A stretch of DNA of 37,924 nt from an uncultured Bacteroidia bacterium (GTDB lineage Bacteria > Bacteroidota > Bacteroidia > Bacteroidales > F082). The stretch spans positions 1 to 37,924 of the forward strand of contig CACXUM010000028.1 of the NCBI GenBank assembly GCA_902770835.1. The letters are read 5' to 3'. Below are positions 6,857 to 28,918 of the stretch, piece by piece. The translations under genes and the position numbers were made by a program. Positions within the stretch are counted from its first letter, which is position 1. The number at the start of each line of letters is the position of its first letter. The notes below the pieces were generated by a model. That model did no database searches. It worked only from the letters and a program-made list of their open reading frames with translations, and was not told the DNA's origin.

Positions 6857-6999
6857 ATTTTCTTTTCGTTTTTCTCAACTTTTTTCTTCACTTTCTGGAT
6901 TTTTAAAACATATATTTTTCATTATCAGCATTTTGCAATATCTTCAAAATCGTCCGAATTGGATTCTAAACACCTCTACCCCACCCGTTTTTCAATACT

Positions 7000-7033
7000 T
7001 TTGGACGGCGTTTTACAAAATTGCGTACCTTTG
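7000..7033 (+). promoter_or_regulatory. Promoter of the ECF sigma operon
   Basis: TTTG at 7000-7003 and TACCTTTG at 7026-7033 are separated by 22 bases, a housekeeping-type Bacteroidetes promoter. A predicted transcript start near 7040 leaves 33 bases before the ATG at 7073. Confidence 0.55.
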
Positions 7034-7072
7034 CCGTCGGTTTTGTCCGCCGCATTAATGACATTAATTGCA

Positions 7073-7615
7073 ATGAACGAAAGCGAACTGAGCATTTTGG
7101 TCGAAAAGATGAAGGCTGGCGACAGGGAATCGTTCAACCAGATTTTCCGCCGCTACTACACGCCTTTGGTGCGCTTTTGCATCCGTTTTGTCGGCGACCA
7201 AGACGAAGCCGCCGAAATCGTTCAGGACCTGTTCGTCAAGTTGTGGACGGGCCGCCAAAAACTGTCCATTTCCTCCTCGCTCGATTCCTACCTGATGAGT
7301 GCGGTGCGCAATTCGGCGCTCACCTATATTAATAAAGAGCGTGCCCACGCCGAAGCCCACTTGCGGATTTACAGCAACGAAACAGACGAAGCCGACCCTT
7401 CGGAAACGCTGCAATCCAACAATTTGGAATCGTCCTACCAAAAAATCCTGTCCGACATGCCCCCGAAACGCCGCGAAGTATTCCTCGCCAGCCGTTTCGA
7501 CGGACTAAAATACGCCGAAATCGCAACGAAATTGGGTCTTTCGCAAAAGACCGTTGAAGCCCACATGAGCGCGGCCATCAAGCAACTCAGGGAAGGGCTA
7601 AAGGATTATATTTGA
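7073..7615 (+). CDS. ECF-family RNA polymerase sigma factor
   Basis: The 180-residue protein begins MNESELSILVEKMKAGDRES. An open frame exists back to 6959, but it crosses the promoter, and ATG 7058 is a possible alternative start. Region 2 shows FNQIFRRYYTPLVRFCIRFV and the -10-binding DEAAEIVQDLFVKLW helix. Region 4 shows PKRREVFLASRFDGLKYAEI followed by the HTH KLGLSQKTVEAHMSAAIKQL. This is the sigma-70 ECF type expanded in Bacteroidetes. It is followed 87 bases later by a FecR-type anti-sigma factor, which presumably sequesters it at the inner membrane until an outer-membrane signal arrives. Unlike most such pairs, no SusC/FecA-type transducer gene is adjacent. Confidence 0.93.
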   Translation: MNESELSILVEKMKAGDRESFNQIFRRYYTPLVRFCIRFVGDQDEAAEIVQDLFVKLWTGRQKLSISSSLDSYLMSAVRNSALTYINKERAHAEAHLRIYSNETDEADPSETLQSNNLESSYQKILSDMPPKRREVFLASRFDGLKYAEIATKLGLSQKTVEAHMSAAIKQLREGLKDYI

Positions 7616-7702
7616 GTGACTTAAGAAAAACTTCAAAATATTTCAAAAAAGACTAAGGGTAAAAGAGAAGTTGTTAGTCTTATTGATGTAAACGAAATAA
7701 GA

Positions 7703-8707
7703 ATGAACTCGGTAAGCGAAAAATATGATGCATTAATCAAGAGTTACCTCAACGGGCAATGCTCTCAGGAGGAGGCTCTTGAACTGCTTTCGTGGATAGC
7801 CGAGTCGGACGAAAACCGAACTTATTTCGAGTCGTTCAAGGAAGTTTGGCATCTCACCGATTTCGCCCTGCCTGAAGTTTTGGATGTGGACGCTGCACTT
7901 GATGCGGTCAACACCAAGATTGAGGCTTTGGAGAAGGAAACCAATGTGGTACAGATGCCGTGGTTGCGCAGGAATTACAAGTATGTTTCGGGCATTGCGG
8001 CTTCTGTCGTGGTGGCCTTGTTCATGGGCTTCCTCGTAACGCGGTCGAACCCAACGGTCACTTTGGCCTCCAACGATTGGGATTCCGAAACGGCCTACAC
8101 GCTTCCCGACGGCACTTCGATTACCTTCAACGGCGTTTCGGAAATCAGCCACCCGAAGCATTTCGCCAAGGGAGAGCGTGCCATTAATTTCGAAGGCAAG
8201 GCCTATTTCGATGTCGTGAAAGACGAGAGCAAGCCCTTCGTGATCCATTGCGGCAGCATGGATGTTGAGGTGTTGGGCACTTCATTCCTTTTGGACGCCG
8301 ACAAAAACGACAATCATTACTTGCTTGACCTTTACACAGGCAAGGTGCGCATGACCGCTTTCGACCAGAAAGGCCGCGAGTTGTCGCAAATTGAAATCAA
8401 TCCGGGCGAGCGCGGAGTGCTGAATGTTACCGAAGGCACATTGAAAGCGATGACCTATCCCGAAGTGAAGGAAGAAGAACTGCTGAACGACCGCGTTCTT
8501 GACTTCAACAACGTCAGCCTTTCGACGATTGTAGAGACTTTGGAATACATCTACCAAGTCAAGATTGACCTTGACGAATCATGCGCTTCCAAGAAACTCA
8601 CTGCCCGTTTCACCGACGAAGATTCCGTTGATGAGGTGATTGAAACCATCGCTGCCGTGTTCGACTTCACAGTGACCAAGTCGGACGGGGTTTATAGGAT
8701 TCGCTGA
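7703..8707 (+). CDS. FecR-type anti-sigma factor with DUF4974-like domain
   Basis: The 334-residue protein has a cytoplasmic N-terminal helical domain (1-90; includes LSWIAESDENRTYFESFKEV) that in this family binds the sigma factor. A single membrane span follows at ~93-112 (YVSGIAASVVVALFMGFLV). The periplasmic FecR domain spans ~130-225 (DGTSITFNGVSEISH, FDVVKDESKPFVIH). A C-terminal STN/DUF4974-like domain spans ~265-334 (LDFNNVSLSTIVETLEYIYQ), which normally contacts the plug extension of a TonB-dependent transducer. The upstream neighbour is the cognate ECF sigma factor. The downstream gene overlaps the stop codon by one base (TGATG), so the third gene is translationally coupled and likely part of the same regulatory circuit. 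Confidence 0.92.
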   Translation: MNSVSEKYDALIKSYLNGQCSQEEALELLSWIAESDENRTYFESFKEVWHLTDFALPEVLDVDAALDAVNTKIEALEKETNVVQMPWLRRNYKYVSGIAASVVVALFMGFLVTRSNPTVTLASNDWDSETAYTLPDGTSITFNGVSEISHPKHFAKGERAINFEGKAYFDVVKDESKPFVIHCGSMDVEVLGTSFLLDADKNDNHYLLDLYTGKVRMTAFDQKGRELSQIEINPGERGVLNVTEGTLKAMTYPEVKEEELLNDRVLDFNNVSLSTIVETLEYIYQVKIDLDESCASKKLTARFTDEDSVDEVIETIAAVFDFTVTKSDGVYRIR

Positions 8708-15592: not shown

Positions 15593-17251
15593 TTATTGGT
15601 GCTGGTTGACCGTTATTTCCACCAATTTCCCCGATGCGGCTTTCAATTGAATGTACCCTATTCGGGGACGGGTACTCATCATGGCATCGACCGTCAATTT
15701 AATGTCCCCATTGCCAAAACCCGCAGTCGGGTCACAATGCATCCACATTACATCGGTCAATGCTGACCAACTTTGGTTGGAATTCACATGAATAATGAAC
15801 ACGCCACCTTCGGGACCAACCTCTATTTCGGTGACATCAGTTTCCAGAAGGTCGGGCTTGCCTTCTTGGGCCACGACCATTTCCGCCAGCACTTGCCCGT
15901 TATGCAAAGCCTTGATGAACCCGTAGCGCGGCGTTTCGGAAGAATTGTTGTCAAATATGGGATAAATCATAGCATCGCCTTGTGTCGGATAGTTGGGAAG
16001 ATTGGAAACCCACGAAGAGGCCTGCAACGACCATAAAGTGTTGGAAGTCAACTCAACGGCTGTGGTGCCACCTGCATAGGCCACAAACAAGGTATCCATT
16101 GCAAACGAAGCCCAAACAGGCTCATCGCCAGCCTCTTGCGTCACTTCAATGCGACAACTCAAGCCCTCCGAATCGACAGCAAAAACCACGTCACGAGGTT
16201 CAGAAATGTTGTTGGGTGCGGCAGTCAGCGTGAGTGTAGCATTGCCCGTTCCCATTGTTTCAGACAGCGACAGCCAATCAACGCCCATTTCGATTTTCCA
16301 TTCCGTATCACAAGCAATAGTGAGCGTTTGCTCGCCACCTTCTTTCCCAAAACTGAACGATTGCGGCGAAACCTCCAAGAAATGCGGGTCGGGAGTGGCT
16401 TCCTGACGCACCGTCACGATGGCTTTCATTTCCGTAGACGAAACCAGCACAACCCACGCCTCTCGCGGCTCAAAGTTGGGGTTCTCGGCAGCCGTCACCA
16501 TGATTTCGGCATCGCCTTCGCCTTGAATCTTGTCCAAAGCCACCCAATCAGCAGTGGCAGAGGCCGTCCAAGCGCCATCACACGACACTGTAATAGGTTT
16601 CGACTCGCCTCCACAAACCATTTCGAGAAGGTCGGGGGTGGCAGAAATGGTAAATTGTGGATCTGGGTATTGGGTCACATGCAAAGTCATGTGGTTTTCC
16701 CCATTGCCGAAAACCACATCGGCTTCGCGCGAAGTCGACAATTCGTCCACAACGGGCGCAATGGTCAAAGTGACCGTAGCATTGCCTTCGCCTTCCATTG
16801 GCGTACAAATCGCCCAATCAGGCAATTGCGATACTGCCCAATTGATATTGGACGTGACCGACACATTGAACTCGCCACCAGCGTCACCACAATCGATGGA
16901 TGTAGGCGAAAGGGTCAGAAATGTTCCAAACCCTTGGTTGACCGTCAGGATGGCGGAGTTGTCCTTCGTCGAAGCCTTGACCTCTCCCGAGCGGCTTCCC
17001 GACGTGTTGTTGGGTTGGGCAGTTAGCGTCAATGTGGCATTACCCGTTCCCGACATGGGAGAAACAGCCAACCATTCAGGCGTGGCATCGATGGTCCACT
17101 CGCCATTCGATTTCACCTCTACTTCAAAACTTCCGCCTTGAGCCTCAATCTCTTGGGTATCTTTGCCAAAAGAAACCTCAACCGGCTTGCGGCAGCCCAC
17201 AAGTAGGCACGCAACGGCGGCAACAAACATTAAGCATTTCAGTTTTTTCAT
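15593..17251 (-). CDS. Lipoprotein with six tandem BACON-type domains
   Basis: The 552-residue product starts MKKLKCLMFVAAVACLLVGC (ATG at 17251; the frame's earlier start is a TTG) with a lipobox LLVGC. The rest is six repeats of ~85-92 residues, each with the BACON pattern: a GG(E/S)F-like strand, SN..W.(I/V), DW(L/V), G.G(N/D)ATLTLT and a terminal TV.Q. Examples are NGEWTIDATPEWL in repeat 1, NINWAVSQLPDWAIC in repeat 2 and DTEWKIEMGVDWLSL in repeat 4. Repeats 5 and 6 are more divergent. BACON domains are surface-exposed Ig-like modules, often linked to mucin or glycan binding in gut Bacteroidales. No catalytic domain follows, so a binding or spacer role is inferred. It does not share an operon with polysaccharide-utilisation genes. 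Confidence 0.88.
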   Translation of the reverse strand: MKKLKCLMFVAAVACLLVGCRKPVEVSFGKDTQEIEAQGGSFEVEVKSNGEWTIDATPEWLAVSPMSGTGNATLTLTAQPNNTSGSRSGEVKASTKDNSAILTVNQGFGTFLTLSPTSIDCGDAGGEFNVSVTSNINWAVSQLPDWAICTPMEGEGNATVTLTIAPVVDELSTSREADVVFGNGENHMTLHVTQYPDPQFTISATPDLLEMVCGGESKPITVSCDGAWTASATADWVALDKIQGEGDAEIMVTAAENPNFEPREAWVVLVSSTEMKAIVTVRQEATPDPHFLEVSPQSFSFGKEGGEQTLTIACDTEWKIEMGVDWLSLSETMGTGNATLTLTAAPNNISEPRDVVFAVDSEGLSCRIEVTQEAGDEPVWASFAMDTLFVAYAGGTTAVELTSNTLWSLQASSWVSNLPNYPTQGDAMIYPIFDNNSSETPRYGFIKALHNGQVLAEMVVAQEGKPDLLETDVTEIEVGPEGGVFIIHVNSNQSWSALTDVMWMHCDPTAGFGNGDIKLTVDAMMSTRPRIGYIQLKAASGKLVEITVNQHQ

Positions 17252-17320
17252 ATCAAACAATTTAATGGATTCATTTCATTTAACAACGAGAGTTTTGAGG
17301 AGTTAGTATAGGTAAAAGAA

Positions 17321-24561: not shown

Positions 24562-24637
<76 letters not shown>

Positions 24638-24774: not shown

Positions 24775-25821
24775 TTAGTTTTCTTGCCAATTATTGACCA
24801 ACTCGGTTATGCTACCGATATTGAAGGTCTTAATCTTAGCAGGCTCCATCGCATAGGCGCGATTCTCATTTGCATACTTGTCGATGGTAATTTTCTTCAC
24901 CGTTTCGTCCGAATTATCATAGACATAGACATCAAGATAGAAACCATAAGCAAGAGCACCTGGGCGCAAACCAACCATCATTGATCTCGCATCCACATTG
25001 TTCAAACCGACACCATGACCAATGTTATTAAGTGATGTGAAGTCGTAAGTAAGTTCCTTGCCACCACCAAGAGCTGAATAACCGAGACCGTCACCCTCAT
25101 GGCTGATAACATACTCATTCCACTTGATAGCATACTGTTCATCATTTCCGGCTTTAAGATAAGTCATCAACTCAGAAAGTTTTTCTTGATTAATCTTGTT
25201 GGGCTTCAGGGTTACTTCACCACAGAGATTGAAGTGATTGTCTCTCACCACAATCTTTTGAACATACCTCGATTTACCATTCTTGGGAGCACATGTCATT
25301 TGGAATTTGGCTACACCAAAAATGATTTTGAAGTAATAGTAATTCTGTTGATAAGTGGTATAAGCCGCTTGCGGGATAGAAATATCCTGCAATCCATAAC
25401 TATAACCATCATCAGAGAAAGAGCGAACAAATTGGACTGGATCCAATACAAACTTCTGGTAAACACCATCAAAAGTATCGGCAGCCATTTCAGCAGGATA
25501 GAAGGCATAATAACCGGGGGCATATCCGATATCTTCACCCTGGTTGACAAAGTTGGCTGTGTTGGCACCTGCATTTTCGACTTGGAAAACGGCCGATCTT
25601 CCCTTATGGAAATTGAAAACCTTGATTTGGTCTTCTTCGTCCCAAATGGTCAGATATGTTACAGGGTCGATGTAGGCTCTATCATCGTCAATACTGACGG
25701 CTTCGACAGCACCATGAGTAGCACCAAAAGAATTGGCACTTTCTTCTTTTTTCTTGCATGAGGTGGCCACCAATGCGACCAAACCCATCATGCAAACACC
25801 ATAGAGAATCTTCTTTTTCAT
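24775..25821 (-). CDS. Surface lipoprotein of unknown function, downstream of a short peptide gene
   Basis: The 348-residue product starts MKKKILYGVCMMGLVALVAT with lipobox VATSC (Cys22) and a KKKEES tether, the pattern of an outer-membrane lipoprotein. The mature part is predicted beta-rich, with NFHKGRSAVFQVENAGANTA, GYAPGYYAFYPAEMAADTF and a central aromatic QQNYYYFKIIFGVAKFQMT. This recalls fimbrillin-like (Mfa/FimA-type) lipoproteins of Bacteroidales, where similar phrases about crossing the 'Y-A-F-Y-P' strand occur, but I cannot confirm the family. The C-terminus (KIKTFNIGSITELVNNWQEN) could be the donor strand or anchor part. It follows a 43-codon gene by 44 bases, shares its promoter at 26083-26117, and ends at the hairpin 24723-24753. 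It is somewhat more AT-rich than flanking core genes by eye. Confidence 0.7.
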   Translation of the reverse strand: MKKKILYGVCMMGLVALVATSCKKKEESANSFGATHGAVEAVSIDDDRAYIDPVTYLTIWDEEDQIKVFNFHKGRSAVFQVENAGANTANFVNQGEDIGYAPGYYAFYPAEMAADTFDGVYQKFVLDPVQFVRSFSDDGYSYGLQDISIPQAAYTTYQQNYYYFKIIFGVAKFQMTCAPKNGKSRYVQKIVVRDNHFNLCGEVTLKPNKINQEKLSELMTYLKAGNDEQYAIKWNEYVISHEGDGLGYSALGGGKELTYDFTSLNNIGHGVGLNNVDARSMMVGLRPGALAYGFYLDVYVYDNSDETVKKITIDKYANENRAYAMEPAKIKTFNIGSITELVNNWQEN

Positions 25822-25865
25822 AGTTTCAATTTGTAAAACTGATTAAAATTAGTAAATTAGAAACC

Positions 25866-25997
25866 TTAAGGATTAAGACCACCACCTTGACCACCTTGGT
25901 TGCTAGGACCAGGCAACTCGGGTGACGACATCAGCACCATAGAGGCTTGCATTTCAATCATTTCTGCCACGGGGGCTTCATAGTTCATCTTTTTCAT
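25866..25997 (-). CDS. 43-residue Gly/Pro-tailed peptide, candidate modified-peptide precursor
   Basis: This gene is below normal length cut-offs. The ATG at 25997 opens 43 codons ending at TAA 25866. The N-terminal part MKKMNYEAPVAEMIEMQASM is charged and Met-rich, resembling the short 'MKK-x-Y-E-A-P' peptides frequent in Bacteroidales; the tail reads PSNQGGQGGGLNP. There is no lipobox or clear signal peptide. Leader-like helix plus short Gly/Pro/Asn/Ser/Gln tail is the shape of a ribosomally made, modified peptide (inference). It has its own promoter ~80 bases upstream, lies just after a same-strand PqqD/kinase/nucleotidyltransferase cluster, and is followed by the 348-aa lipoprotein. Codons are sensible throughout and the frame is closed by good spacing, but expression is not shown. 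Confidence 0.7.
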   Translation of the reverse strand: MKKMNYEAPVAEMIEMQASMVLMSSPELPGPSNQGGQGGGLNP

Positions 25998-26082
25998 TTT
26001 TGTAAATTTTTAAGTTAGACTTTTGTTTATTAATTGTTAGTTGTTTTGTTCAATCCAATACTTCTTCTTGAAATTGACGCTG

Positions 26083-26117
26083 CAAAAATAATACTTTTTT
26101 CATTAATGCAACACAAA
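26083..26117 (-). promoter_or_regulatory. Promoter of the peptide-lipoprotein unit
   Basis: TATTTTTG on the minus strand occupies 26090-26083, with TTTG at 26117-26114, 23 bases upstream. It is located in the gap between the nucleotidyltransferase stop and the peptide gene, giving a leader of ~80 bases. Confidence 0.55.
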
Positions 26118-26156
26118 AAATGCAATTTTTTTGAATTTTTTTCATGGGAAGCATTT

Positions 26157-27266
26157 TTATTCATGGCCAAAGTTCTTGGAGAATCCCCGCTTCAGCGAGG
26201 CTCGCAACTCATGGAAAGCCGCGCCGGGAAACACTTTAGCAAGGTGGAAAAACTCAACGAAGATTCCGAGGAAGGCATGTAGTTTATGCCACAGGCGGCG
26301 TTTGGGCTTGCGGCGCAGAAAACCTCGGTCGCGGTTGAAGTTGCCCTCCTCCATGATGCGGCGATAAAGCCGCATGGCGGTGGAGGCACTCGCCGCTGTA
26401 TAGAATGGCATCTCATTCTCAGGTAGGCCAAGACACTGCACCATCAAGTAGCCGAAGGCCTGCCAAGGCTTCATAATGTGCATGTCTTTGAAGTAACGGC
26501 GGAGCGTGTCGTGGTCGAGTTGGTCGCGGTAGGCATGGAGCGTGATGGCCACATCTGCAATCTGTTTCCAGCCCACACCTGTACTCAGGAAATGGTGCCA
26601 CGCATGGAAGAAGGTGAAGAACACCATGAATTCCTTTGAGGGAATGGTGAGCGGGAAGCCTTCATAGTCAATCTTTTGGGTATGTTCGTGCAAGCCTTCA
26701 CGCTCGATGGCGGCATACACCTCGCGCTCTTTGCGGTCGGTTATCTCCGCACTGACGCGATGCACTTCCAAGGCGTAGTTGCCAAACTCGAGATTGTAGT
26801 GCTTGTAGTCGTCACCTTCGTTGCCCCAATTGTAGGCCGAAGGCAAGCCCTTGCGCACGCCCTCGCAAGCACGGCGGAAGTTGTCGATGCCCACATACAG
26901 GTCGATGTCGCCAAACTGGCGCAGGTTAGGATTGGGATAGAGCAATGCCAAAGAGAAGCCCTTGAGCACTACCGGTTCCACATCGGAGTCGCGCAAGGCC
27001 TTCACCGACATTTGCAGGATTTGCTTCAGTTGGAGTTGCGACACCAGATTGGAGCGCATTTGCGTCTTCATCATGCCAAGCATTTCCTGTGAAGGCTTGT
27101 TGCTGCCCGTCATCAGCGAGGCCGTGCCGCACACCAAGACGTTGGTGGCATGGTATTGGGCCAGCCGTAGCACCGCCTTCCAGTCGATTTCCTCATCGAT
27201 GGCAACGGGGGTTCCCCACAGGGCAGCCCGCATCAGGGCGAAATATTGTTTCTCTGTCGTTGACAT
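26157..27266 (-). CDS. Nucleotidyltransferase family protein (PF14907-like)
   Basis: The 369-residue protein has the NTP_transf_5-type core: VVLKGFSLALLYPNPNLRQF followed by GDIDLYV (residues ~99-124), with Lys102 and the Asp120/Asp122 metal-binding pair. The downstream helical part contains FHAWHHFLSTGVGWKQIADV, also typical of the family, where a conserved H..W motif follows. The C-terminal ~60 residues are strongly basic (RDRGFLRRKPKRRLWHKLHA). Such enzymes occur beside HprK-like kinases in lasso-peptide and related clusters, where they are thought to extend phosphorylated tails with nucleotides. It is the last gene of the kinase-peptidase-RRE unit; 76 bases separate it from the RRE gene and contain a short palindrome. 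No signal peptide; cytoplasmic. Confidence 0.85.
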   Translation of the reverse strand: MSTTEKQYFALMRAALWGTPVAIDEEIDWKAVLRLAQYHATNVLVCGTASLMTGSNKPSQEMLGMMKTQMRSNLVSQLQLKQILQMSVKALRDSDVEPVVLKGFSLALLYPNPNLRQFGDIDLYVGIDNFRRACEGVRKGLPSAYNWGNEGDDYKHYNLEFGNYALEVHRVSAEITDRKEREVYAAIEREGLHEHTQKIDYEGFPLTIPSKEFMVFFTFFHAWHHFLSTGVGWKQIADVAITLHAYRDQLDHDTLRRYFKDMHIMKPWQAFGYLMVQCLGLPENEMPFYTAASASTAMRLYRRIMEEGNFNRDRGFLRRKPKRRLWHKLHAFLGIFVEFFHLAKVFPGAAFHELRASLKRGFSKNFGHE

Positions 27267-27323
27267 TGCGTTTTTCCTACACCTTATTAATTAATAGTTA
27301 CCTACATTCCCAAACAATGCGAT

Positions 27324-27341
27324 CGACGCTTGGAAGCGTCG
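27324..27341. repeat. Short palindrome between RRE and nucleotidyltransferase genes
   Basis: CGACGC (27324-27329) and GCGTCG (27336-27341) flank TTGGAA, and the pairing can extend to 8 bases with a 2-base core. It sits in the only sizeable gap of the operon, without a T-run, so it is more likely a REP-like or mRNA-stability hairpin than a terminator. Confidence 0.45.
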
Positions 27342-27342
27342 G

Positions 27343-27612
27343 CTACTCCTCGACAATTTTTGCCTCTTTCCACGATTGCAACAGTTGATCCACATCCTTT
27401 TCGGCCACCTCGCGGGTGATGTCGTAATTGTCAATCAGGAGTTGCACAAGCATTTTGGCATCAAAGTCCTTGTCTTCCACCTGTTTCCAAAGGAAGGCGG
27501 CGGTGCCGTTCATCGAAATCATACGGTTGAAATTGACCGTTTCTATGCCTTCGGCGACGAGGATGTACTCCTGACCCAAAGTGCGCAATGTGTAGCCTTT
27601 CGAAATTCTCAT
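27343..27612 (-). CDS. PqqD-like RiPP recognition element protein
   Basis: The 89-residue product is a stand-alone PqqD-like winged-helix domain: N-terminal beta hairpin (YTLRTLGQEYILVAEG), the FNRMISMNGTAAFLWKQVED strand-helix block that in PqqD relatives includes the N.TA..W pattern, and a C-terminal helix VDQLLQSWKEAKIVEE. In RiPP systems such a domain binds the leader of a precursor peptide and delivers it to modifying enzymes. Its partner kinase, peptidase and nucleotidyltransferase are adjacent. It follows the peptidase gene by 14 bases. The nearest precursor candidate is the 43-codon gene at 25866-25997. Confidence 0.88.
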   Translation of the reverse strand: MRISKGYTLRTLGQEYILVAEGIETVNFNRMISMNGTAAFLWKQVEDKDFDAKMLVQLLIDNYDITREVAEKDVDQLLQSWKEAKIVEE

Positions 27613-27626
27613 AATTAATTGTCTTT

Positions 27627-28082
27627 CTATTTCTTCATTAATTTATTCCATTTCCTATGCAGTTTCAGAAGATACCTCCTCATCGGCAGGCTATGCCGCC
27701 AAAGCCACGCCTTTCCCAACTTGCGGCATCGGCCATCGGGCTTAATCACCTCCAAGGCCGTGGCCAACACTTCCTCCCGTTTCACCCGTTCATTGCCTTT
27801 CAGGTTGCCATCGCCCATCAATACCAAGGTCGAACCTTCAACGGCATACACTCGATGCAAAATCATGTGATTGCCATACTTCACCAACACCACATCACCT
27901 ACTCCAACATGGTCTTCCTTGCGCAGCATCACCCTATCTTCACCACCTCTAATAAAAGGCAACATACTGATTCCCTGAGGAATGATTGGAACCCTATTGC
28001 CTTTGCTCAGGCGTTCTACCAACTTCTGGTCGAGGGCTTCCATTGCTTCGTTCACTGCGATACTGTTTTGTAGCAAAGCCAT
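27627..28082 (-). CDS. S24/S26-type peptidase (signal-peptidase-like)
   Basis: The 151-residue protein has the LexA/signal-peptidase-like core: PIIPQGISMLPFIRGGEDRV with Ser39 in the G-x-SM-x-P motif, GDVVLVKYGNHMILHRVYAV with His76 in the LHRV position, and a final GDGN turn. A Ser-His pair is like the eukaryal/archaeal SipW branch of S26 rather than the Ser-Lys bacterial type. There is no membrane segment in the N-terminal part, so it seems soluble or peripheral; the C-terminus is very basic (RRYLLKLHRKWNKLMKK). It may process the companion peptide (inference). Its start overlaps the end of the kinase gene by 31 bases, implying coupling. Confidence 0.82.
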   Translation of the reverse strand: MALLQNSIAVNEAMEALDQKLVERLSKGNRVPIIPQGISMLPFIRGGEDRVMLRKEDHVGVGDVVLVKYGNHMILHRVYAVEGSTLVLMGDGNLKGNERVKREEVLATALEVIKPDGRCRKLGKAWLWRHSLPMRRYLLKLHRKWNKLMKK

Positions 28083-28918
28083 GCAGCCTCAGCGTTGGGC
28101 AGGCAATCGAGCGAATAGCACGGCACCGAACTGACGATTTTCTCGTTGGTGGCATGGAAGCCATTCGCCATCGACTTGATGAAGCGATAGCCTGAGAACG
28201 AAACATAAATCGAGGCGTATGCCTCAACCATCGACTGCCGCCTGATGGCGTTCTTCTTGGCCTGATGGAGGTCGACGATGGCCCCGACGGGGACATCAAG
28301 GTTGCGATAGCACGGTGTCTTGCCGCTCCACGGCGTACCGTAGACGCGCGTCACGCCATCCACCACACGAAGCGCGGGGTTGTCGTCGTTCAGCAAGGAG
28401 CAACCACCTATATTATTAATCCACAGTTGGCTGTGCGTACTCTTGCCTGTGCCACTCTTGCCGAGGAAGAGATAGCCCTTGCCGTCTTTCATCGTGACGG
28501 AGGCGTGCATGAGAAGCGTATCAAGGCAGGCTGTAGAAAGGGCGAACATCAGCATCAAAACCGTATTGACAGAGAACCTGCTACTGCCGAGGACGCGGAA
28601 CTGCGCCTTGGAAAAAGCCTTGTCGGTGAGCAAATACACCCTTGCAGGCGCATCCATATCGGGAGCAGCTTCCATCAACCATTGCCCGTCCAACTCATAC
28701 AACTCGATGCGAGGCTGATCCTTGGCTATGCAACTTGCCGTAACGAGTTGTTTCCCTGACATATCAGGCATCTTCTCCACCAACTCAGCAACAAAAACTA
28801 TCGTGCCTGAATCCTCAGAAAGGAAAGGCTCGTAATGCGCCAACTCCGACCATTCCGCTGCGTTGTCGGGCATCTCAACAGCAAACTTAAAGCCCGCTAC
28901 TTCATATACTTTTCTCAT
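28052..28918 (-). CDS. HprK-like serine kinase
   Basis: The 288-residue protein uses the ATG at 28918 (MRKVYEVAGFKF); the upstream open frame to 28948 runs into the promoter. It has an HPr kinase/phosphorylase-like P-loop GKSGTGKST (153-161), preceded by the conserved LLMHASVTM with His138. NDDNPAL with the Asp178-Asp179 pair and GTPWSGK follow. It lacks the N-terminal HprK domain and is closer to the kinases of lasso-peptide clusters that phosphorylate the C-terminal Ser of precursor peptides. There is no PTS HPr context. It is first in the unit with peptidase, RRE protein and nucleotidyltransferase. Its promoter is interleaved with that of lnt. Confidence 0.85.
   Translation of the reverse strand: MRKVYEVAGFKFAVEMPDNAAEWSELAHYEPFLSEDSGTIVFVAELVEKMPDMSGKQLVTASCIAKDQPRIELYELDGQWLMEAAPDMDAPARVYLLTDKAFSKAQFRVLGSSRFSVNTVLMLMFALSTACLDTLLMHASVTMKDGKGYLFLGKSGTGKSTHSQLWINNIGGCSLLNDDNPALRVVDGVTRVYGTPWSGKTPCYRNLDVPVGAIVDLHQAKKNAIRRQSMVEAYASIYVSFSGYRFIKSMANGFHATNEKIVSSVPCYSLDCLPNAEAAWLCYKTVSQ

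Follow-up and report, generated by a model that had tools for sequence, protein, structure and literature searches.

A 37,924-nucleotide stretch of contig CACXUM010000028.1 from an uncultured Bacteroidia bacterium (Bacteroidales lineage F082, assembly GCA_902770835.1; hereafter the window) raises the question of what its compact enzyme cassette acts on. An HprK-like kinase, a protease, a stand-alone PqqD-type recognition element (RRE) for ribosomally synthesised and post-translationally modified peptides (RiPPs) and a PF14907-type nucleotidyltransferase lie beside a 43-aa peptide gene and a lipoprotein gene, all six on one strand as the original prediction had placed them (Table 1). That prediction, made from the letters alone, read the locus as a non-lasso modified-peptide system linked to the lipoprotein. 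Our analysis indicates that the locus is probably the processing hub of a RiPP system in Bacteroidota resembling the linear polyphosphorylated peptides (LPP), serving precursors in trans, with the mature phosphopeptide at the cell surface together with a lipoprotein.

The family assignments and catalytic residues first proposed for the enzymes were borne out. The RRE and the nucleotidyltransferase matched their families above the cut-off, and the motif G119-D120-x-D122 of the latter is kept in at least 95% of 34 aligned rows. The kinase matched ScmC (TIGR04249, E 4e-6), HprK_rel_A (TIGR04352, E 5e-5) and PEPCK in Pfam and NCBIfam, all below cut-off; its P-loop occupies residues 153–161, and Asp178 and Asp179 are invariant in all 17 aligned rows, the window included. 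For the protease, predicted to be a Ser-His peptidase of the S24/S26 type, the Pfam S24 match (E 0.004) fell below cut-off, as did the best NCBIfam match, to archaeal-type signal peptidase I (TIGR02228, E 2e-4), and Ser39, His76 and also Asp91 are invariant in 28 of 28 rows (an assignable protease open reading frame, ORF, came from 28 of 37 loci). The protease and kinase genes overlap by 31 bp. The 43-aa peptide has no family in Pfam or NCBIfam, and the lipoprotein matched nothing over cut-off in either.

Table 1. Positions in the window of the cassette genes, the promoter box and the paired peptide and lipoprotein genes.
Feature	Position	Strand	Evidence
HprK-like kinase (LppK-like), 288 aa	28052..28918	-	weak family matches; alignment; syntenic relatives
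Protease, archaeal-type signal-peptidase-like Ser/His/Asp (LppS-like), 151 aa	27627..28082	-	weak matches; invariant residues
Stand-alone PqqD-type RRE (LppB-like), 89 aa	27343..27612	-	PF05402, E 6e-16
PF14907 nucleotidyltransferase (LppN-like), 369 aa	26157..27266	-	Pfam, E 4e-37
-7 promoter box TAttTTTG of the peptide-lipoprotein unit	26083..26090	-	TAnnTTTG in 31/31 loci
Precursor peptide, 43 aa	25866..25997	-	recurrence in gap; leader alignment
Lipoprotein paired with the peptide, 348 aa, lipobox ...ATSC	24775..25821	-	lipobox; profile

Comparison with 31 syntenic relatives (L034–L064) showed that the short gene is real. The kinase, protease, RRE and nucleotidyltransferase follow lnt in an identical order in all 31, and the lipoprotein comes after them in 30, the contig of L034 stopping first. 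An ORF of 37–49 aa lies in the gap before the lipoprotein in every one of the 30 relatives whose contig reaches it, and these two regularities place the gene arrangement beyond chance. The hidden peptide of the original prediction, and the short gene looked for beside homologous cassettes, were thus both found. An outer-membrane gene is also present in 25 of the 31 relatives (not visible in L034, L038, L042, L046, L053 and L063). One relative (L040, genome G061) has a single cassette-linked peptide followed by two lipoprotein copies in tandem.

The peptides combine a constant YxAP leader with a tail that varies. Residues M1, K2, Tyr6, Ala8, Pro9 and Glu12 are invariant in an alignment of 32 peptides (31 cassette-linked, including that of the window, plus the second peptide of the same genome), and the columns turn variable from about 20 residues past the Tyr. 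In the window the leader reads YEAP (Tyr6, Pro9), Ser24 and Ser25 stand 18–19 residues after Tyr6, the tail is of the variable Gly/Pro kind, and the border between leader and core is predicted near residues 22–23. Every cassette-linked core contains at least one Ser and none contains Cys. The separate promoter proposed for the peptide and lipoprotein also finds agreement in the relatives: all 31 loci, the window included, carry a Bacteroidetes-type -7 box, TAnnTTTG, 73–97 bp ahead of the peptide start. When the 250 bp upstream are shuffled base by base, 12% of the shuffles contain such a box at some position. The two genes may be co-transcribed from it.

Precursors of this type are not confined to the cassette. 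A profile (A1) built from these peptides and run on 99 genomes of the genus matched 99 places in 34 genomes, 31 cassette-linked and 68 dispersed, with one to eight peptides scattered in each carrier genome. The RRE is present in 37 of the 99 genomes, among them all 34 with a leader-type peptide, and none of the 62 genomes lacking the RRE has such a peptide. The three RRE genomes without a peptide match (G044, G046 and G050) have RREs only 27–31% identical and in another arrangement; in their loci (L067, L068 and L069) the RRE is followed by a kinase-like gene only. When the comparison is restricted to the 46 genomes with an outer-membrane marker sharing at least 60% identity with that of the window, all 33 carriers have the peptide and none of the 13 non-carriers does (Fisher 1e-11, kinship not removed). 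Because the A1 profile was trained on carriers and kinship was not removed, this association is partly a description of the clade. Two further loci in the genus, L065 (G003) and L066 (G047), have the alternative order nucleotidyltransferase, kinase, protease, RRE; a family lipoprotein lies upstream of the nucleotidyltransferase in L066, and no adjacent peptide was recognised in either.

Dispersed peptides were read at 64 of the 68 places (G083:C42, G007:C1, G003:C128 and G003:C57 were left out). A lipoprotein follows on the same strand in 57 of the 64, within 75 bp in 50 cases and at 168–393 bp in seven. The other seven comprise three at contig ends and four without a lipoprotein by pattern, one of which (L124) falls there because its lipobox is unusual. 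With a single rule for both classes, a lipoprotein followed 57 of 61 evaluable dispersed peptides, compared with 27 of the 270 other genes taken from those regions. One second pair of this kind exists in the genome of the window itself, on contig C15. A Ser stands 18 to 20 residues after the Tyr in all 64 dispersed peptides (at +19 in 61), Cys occurs in the core of 55 (at +17), and 51 have a Trp no more than five residues from the C terminus. One cassette appears, judging from these distributions, to serve many dispersed peptides and not just its neighbour. The original reading of a non-lasso peptide system linked to a lipoprotein stands in that the short gene recurs, the leader is conserved and the lasso protease B2 is absent; it needs amending in that the cassette appears to serve more than the adjacent gene and the enzyme set has a precedent in LPP.

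That precedent is the lpp cluster of Paenibacillus alginolyticus (Popov et al. 2026; PMC13381572). The LPP core set is described as a kinase, a protease like signal peptidase I (SpI-like), a stand-alone RRE, an NTP transferase and an MsbA-like exporter. LppK, LppS and LppB act on the precursor LppA: LppK phosphorylates core Ser3 and adds multiple phosphates, the SpI-like LppS (S29, H68, D93) needs the RRE LppB to cleave the leader in vitro, YxxP is required for efficient binding, and deletion of lppN had no visible effect (PMC13381572). Our locus shares the SpI-like Ser/His/Asp leader peptidase, the discrete RRE, the HprK-like kinase and the NTP transferase, in a core set that shows no macrolactam cyclase, and it shares a precursor with a conserved YxxP leader and a variable C terminus. 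The discrete RRE, kinase and transferase occur together in 31 of 31 syntenic relatives, and the protease pairs its invariant triad with TIGR02228 as best, sub-cut-off, match. The Ser distance is also alike, 18 residues past the Tyr in LppA by our own count of Ser3 and 18–20 here. The system differs in belonging to Bacteroidota, in its neighbouring lipoproteins, and in having many dispersed precursors per genome where LPP has one to three per cluster (PMC13381572). LPP is said there to be restricted to Bacillota, and the main text is without the word ‘Bacteroid’; our literature search, whose scope left out most subscription journals, preprints and supplements, likewise found no Bacteroidota version described. 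A related arrangement is found on the Butyrivibrio fibrisolvens plasmid pNP243 (NZ_CP146964.1, Bacillota), where a kinase, a 57-aa YxxP peptide, PqqD, an S24/S26 peptidase, ABC transporter genes and a nucleotidyltransferase share one region; it differs in its Cys-rich core, the glycosyltransferases in the region and the lack of an annotated neighbouring lipoprotein.

The same parts recall phosphorylated or glycosylated lasso peptides of the paeninodin/pseudomycoidin type, which have an HprK-like kinase, a putative nucleotidyltransferase, a discrete RRE and a [Y/W]xxP leader (PMC8498205); we found all four here, the leader together with the discrete RRE. The kinase and nucleotidyltransferase are lasso tailoring enzymes (PMC8498205), and the best PDB sequence match of the RRE alignment is a lasso B1 protein, TfuB1 (6jx3, E 5e-4). 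A lasso cluster with its cyclase and B2 elsewhere in the genome is nevertheless hardly credible. Lasso biosynthesis requires B2 as well as the C cyclase; B2 (PF13471) was found in 0 of the 99 genus genomes, several of them incomplete (a control search matched 2 of 14), and a signal-peptidase-like protease takes its place in the cassette. The absence of B2 noted in the window thus extends to the genus, and we rejected the lasso peptide as a candidate. Visual inspection of the ORFs in the 37.9-kb window revealed no macrolactam cyclase, with no family search aimed at it.

The gene set, the leader motif, the Ser of the dispersed class, the co-occurrence and the lipoprotein pairing are read directly from the DNA, and the system likely works like LPP. 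The RRE would grip the Y-x-x-P leader of short precursors and present them to the kinase and protease. The HprK-like kinase would phosphorylate a core Ser 18–20 residues past the Tyr (near +19 in the dispersed class), and the signal-peptidase-like protease would cut immediately ahead of the conserved (C/M)-x-S, near +16/+17, and so release the leader. Leader binding, the phosphorylation site and the cleavage site are predictions from the LPP precedent together with the Ser and Cys positions in the dispersed peptides. The PF14907 transferase may attach a further group to the phosphate; pseudomycoidin provides a precedent for a further group added by a nucleotidyltransferase (PMC8498205). The hub would act in trans, on the adjacent precursor and, in most carriers, on further precursors elsewhere, mostly directly upstream of a modular surface lipoprotein. 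Once exported, the mature phosphopeptide would most likely reach the cell surface and work with or on that lipoprotein.

The lipoprotein family is fast-evolving, with a mean amino-acid distance over 30 loci of 0.68 compared with 0.21 for Lnt, 0.34 for the kinase and 0.36 for the RRE, and the profile of the window lipoprotein also matches the N-terminal ~200 residues of lipoproteins that neighbour dispersed peptides. C-terminal domains scored over cut-off in four of eight scanned lipoproteins (InlB-like repeat, Cleaved_Adhesin, beta-helix and fn3) and in none of the rest. The N-terminal region of the window lipoprotein weakly matches the cell-adhesion structure 4k4k (E 0.0025), and one dispersed-peptide lipoprotein had no PDB match. 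With this one weak match and nothing over cut-off in Pfam or NCBIfam, an adhesin or fimbrillin identity was not adopted. The match, like the tight pairing of the two genes, would suit a peptide that is a structural piece of a lipoprotein assembly, such as an anchor or a strand of a fimbria-like structure, with phosphorylation as a processing tag only; the Gly-rich, variable tails speak against such a role, which we consider unlikely.

Tail and lipoprotein distances correlate strongly in 57 dispersed pairs (r 0.75, or 0.71 when leader distance is taken into account), a value that also reflects orthologous pairs inherited together and can arise without contact. In 30 cassette pairs the correlation is 0.23, equal to that of tail with RRE, and leader correlations are higher (0.59 with the RRE, 0.57 with the lipoprotein, 0.43 with the kinase), hence contact between peptide and lipoprotein is not proven. 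Fast evolution and co-variation of tail and lipoprotein, the pairing of most dispersed copies with a lipoprotein and the patchy presence of the system could also be expected of a small antimicrobial or signalling RiPP whose adjacent lipoprotein is an immunity protein or receptor. Several lipoproteins are, however, large and modular, unlike typical immunity proteins, the family also occurs without a peptide, and no dedicated exporter was found in the genome of the window; we consider this explanation unlikely, somewhat more so than the structural one.

Sites lacking the cassette show which genes move together. We read 12 stretches around the outer-membrane gene from genomes without the syntenic cassette. 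In five (G004, G028, G066, G087 and G069) lnt lies within ~460 bp of the outer-membrane gene, and we found none of the six genes; in three (G048, G085 and G072) a different gene sits between them; and in G077 and G097 the lipoprotein is at the site, with enzymes and peptide absent. The G020 contig was too short, and G047, with its cassette elsewhere, has unrelated genes there. In an Lnt tree of 41 rows G077 falls among the carriers with good support and G004, G028 and G066 within the carrier clade at a fork left unresolved, requiring at least two changes for the enzymes and peptide, with gains and losses not told apart. Taken together, the cassette-free sites, the tree and the lipoprotein distribution indicate that enzymes and peptide come and go together, while the lipoprotein also occurs alone.

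Beyond the genus, a kinase profile matched at least 589 stretches (stretches, not genomes) in the contigs of a one-genome-per-species collection, of which 80 loci were kept. All 80 are titled Bacteroidales, Bacteroidia or subgroups, with the single exception of ‘bacterium P3’. Protease and RRE were both in the fetched stretch at 71 of the 80 loci, at 70 of them near the kinase on its strand. An ABC exporter is the next gene in L191 (Pfam), and similar ORFs occur in L196, L209 and several order-level loci, the latter recognised only by their length and N terminus. YxxP peptides lie in or beside enzyme genes in L284, L287, L295, L298 and L299; in L284 a lipoprotein-like ORF follows and the whole unit stands in one row. 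The other four loci also bear on a regulatory alternative, in which the short ORF would be an upstream translation leader controlling the lipoprotein and the enzymes would act on another target. Its position directly upstream of the lipoprotein and behind a promoter box would fit, but the conserved part is an amino-acid motif like known RRE ligands, the presence of the peptide within the genus follows that of the enzymes more than that of the lipoprotein, and a YxxP peptide sits beside the enzymes at these loci, making such a leader improbable.

Among 247 genomes of the order the narrow kinase profile matched 21 and the narrow peptide profile (A5) seven, six of them kinase carriers (p 1e-6; 2e-4 with two matches dropped, those of G341 and G210, which sit in long frames and are possibly spurious). 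A broad leader profile (A7) matched 23 genomes including 13 kinase carriers, a result that is partly circular because nine of the 13 had supplied training rows; outside the training genomes it matched 4 of 12 carriers and 10 of 226 non-carriers. In a prospective test, the 10 A7-positive genomes without a narrow-profile kinase were searched again with a broader kinase profile alongside 10 peptide-negative genomes. Matches at E 1e-42 or better were obtained in six of the former and none of the latter (p 0.005), the control G100 giving a weak match (E 1.2e-9), and the kinase stretch of the six held an RRE in five and a protease match in four. The A7 profile matched 13 peptides in G153 and 18 in G208. 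In the latter (L264, L270, L272 and L274–L279) those peptides that were read end in Trp/acidic motifs, such as SLWGDDE and SDWSDFE, and several have no lipoprotein after them in the stretch read. The Phocaeicola massiliensis plasmid OY725995.1 carries, in a single row and on one strand, a 38-aa peptide (YEAP, ending GNWTD), a lipoprotein of ~1077 aa, an RRE, a nucleotidyltransferase, an exporter-like gene of 540 aa, a kinase and a protease. Prevotella sp. oral taxon 299 has the kinase, protease and RRE, with one weak peptide match elsewhere (E 0.04).

Several observations weigh against a processing hub of the LPP kind. The Ser at Tyr+18 to +20 is present in 18 and missing in 13 of the 31 cassette-linked peptides (e.g. 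the ...NKDFMQG type), so this phosphosite cannot be universal; those peptides are perhaps a specialised or non-phosphorylated class. The LPP consensus YxxPxVLxHQxIxFETxxS (PMC13381572) is only partly kept, HQxIxFET being missing. The window cassette has no exporter, the MsbA-like member of the LPP core set; the ABC matches in its genome, which is 86% complete, are only 25% identical, and an orthologue of the cassette exporters of other genera was not found there. Near the kinase, narrow profiles detected the nucleotidyltransferase at 17 and the peptide at 13 of the 80 loci, 10 of the 13 being of the syntenic type. Four peptide-positive order genomes lack a strong kinase match (G178, E 2.5e-10; none in G335, G263 and G330). 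The family lipoprotein occurs without an RRE in G020, G077 and G097, so it does not need the peptide, and in G050 with only a weak RRE. With most LPP features found, the exporter absent and the leader consensus partial, we class the system as an LPP-like variant and not as a member of LPP.

Elsewhere in the window, a tRNA gene at 24562–24634, between the lipoprotein and the outer-membrane gene, was the sole RNA feature found; the empty gap of L080 holds a sequence much like it by eye, which suggests that the cassette lies next to a tRNA. A 555-aa lipoprotein (15593–17260) contains several similar repeats of ~85 residues each, which we take to be BACON-like, and 6959–8707 presumably encodes a sigma-factor-like gene followed by a FecR-like gene. 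A defence system was rejected, the best PADLOC match having E 0.084.

What is new here is one cassette with many dispersed precursors, most of them beside a surface lipoprotein, and an LPP-type gene set in Bacteroidota. A bolder extension, which we hold tentatively and rate below an even chance, is a genome-wide system of peptide tagging at the Bacteroidales surface, in which one hub would phosphorylate, and perhaps glycosylate, from one to ~18 precursors per genome, most with a dedicated lipoprotein for which the phosphopeptide would be partner, cap or covalent decoration. The pairing of precursors with surface lipoproteins offers a functional lead missing from the 2026 LPP paper. If our interpretation is correct, it would carry LPP-type RiPPs from Bacillota to Bacteroidota and explain a class of unannotated Bacteroidales genes of ~35–70 codons. 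The role of phosphorylated RiPPs would then become testable in gut bacteria, the carriers being some rumen and gut Bacteroidales.

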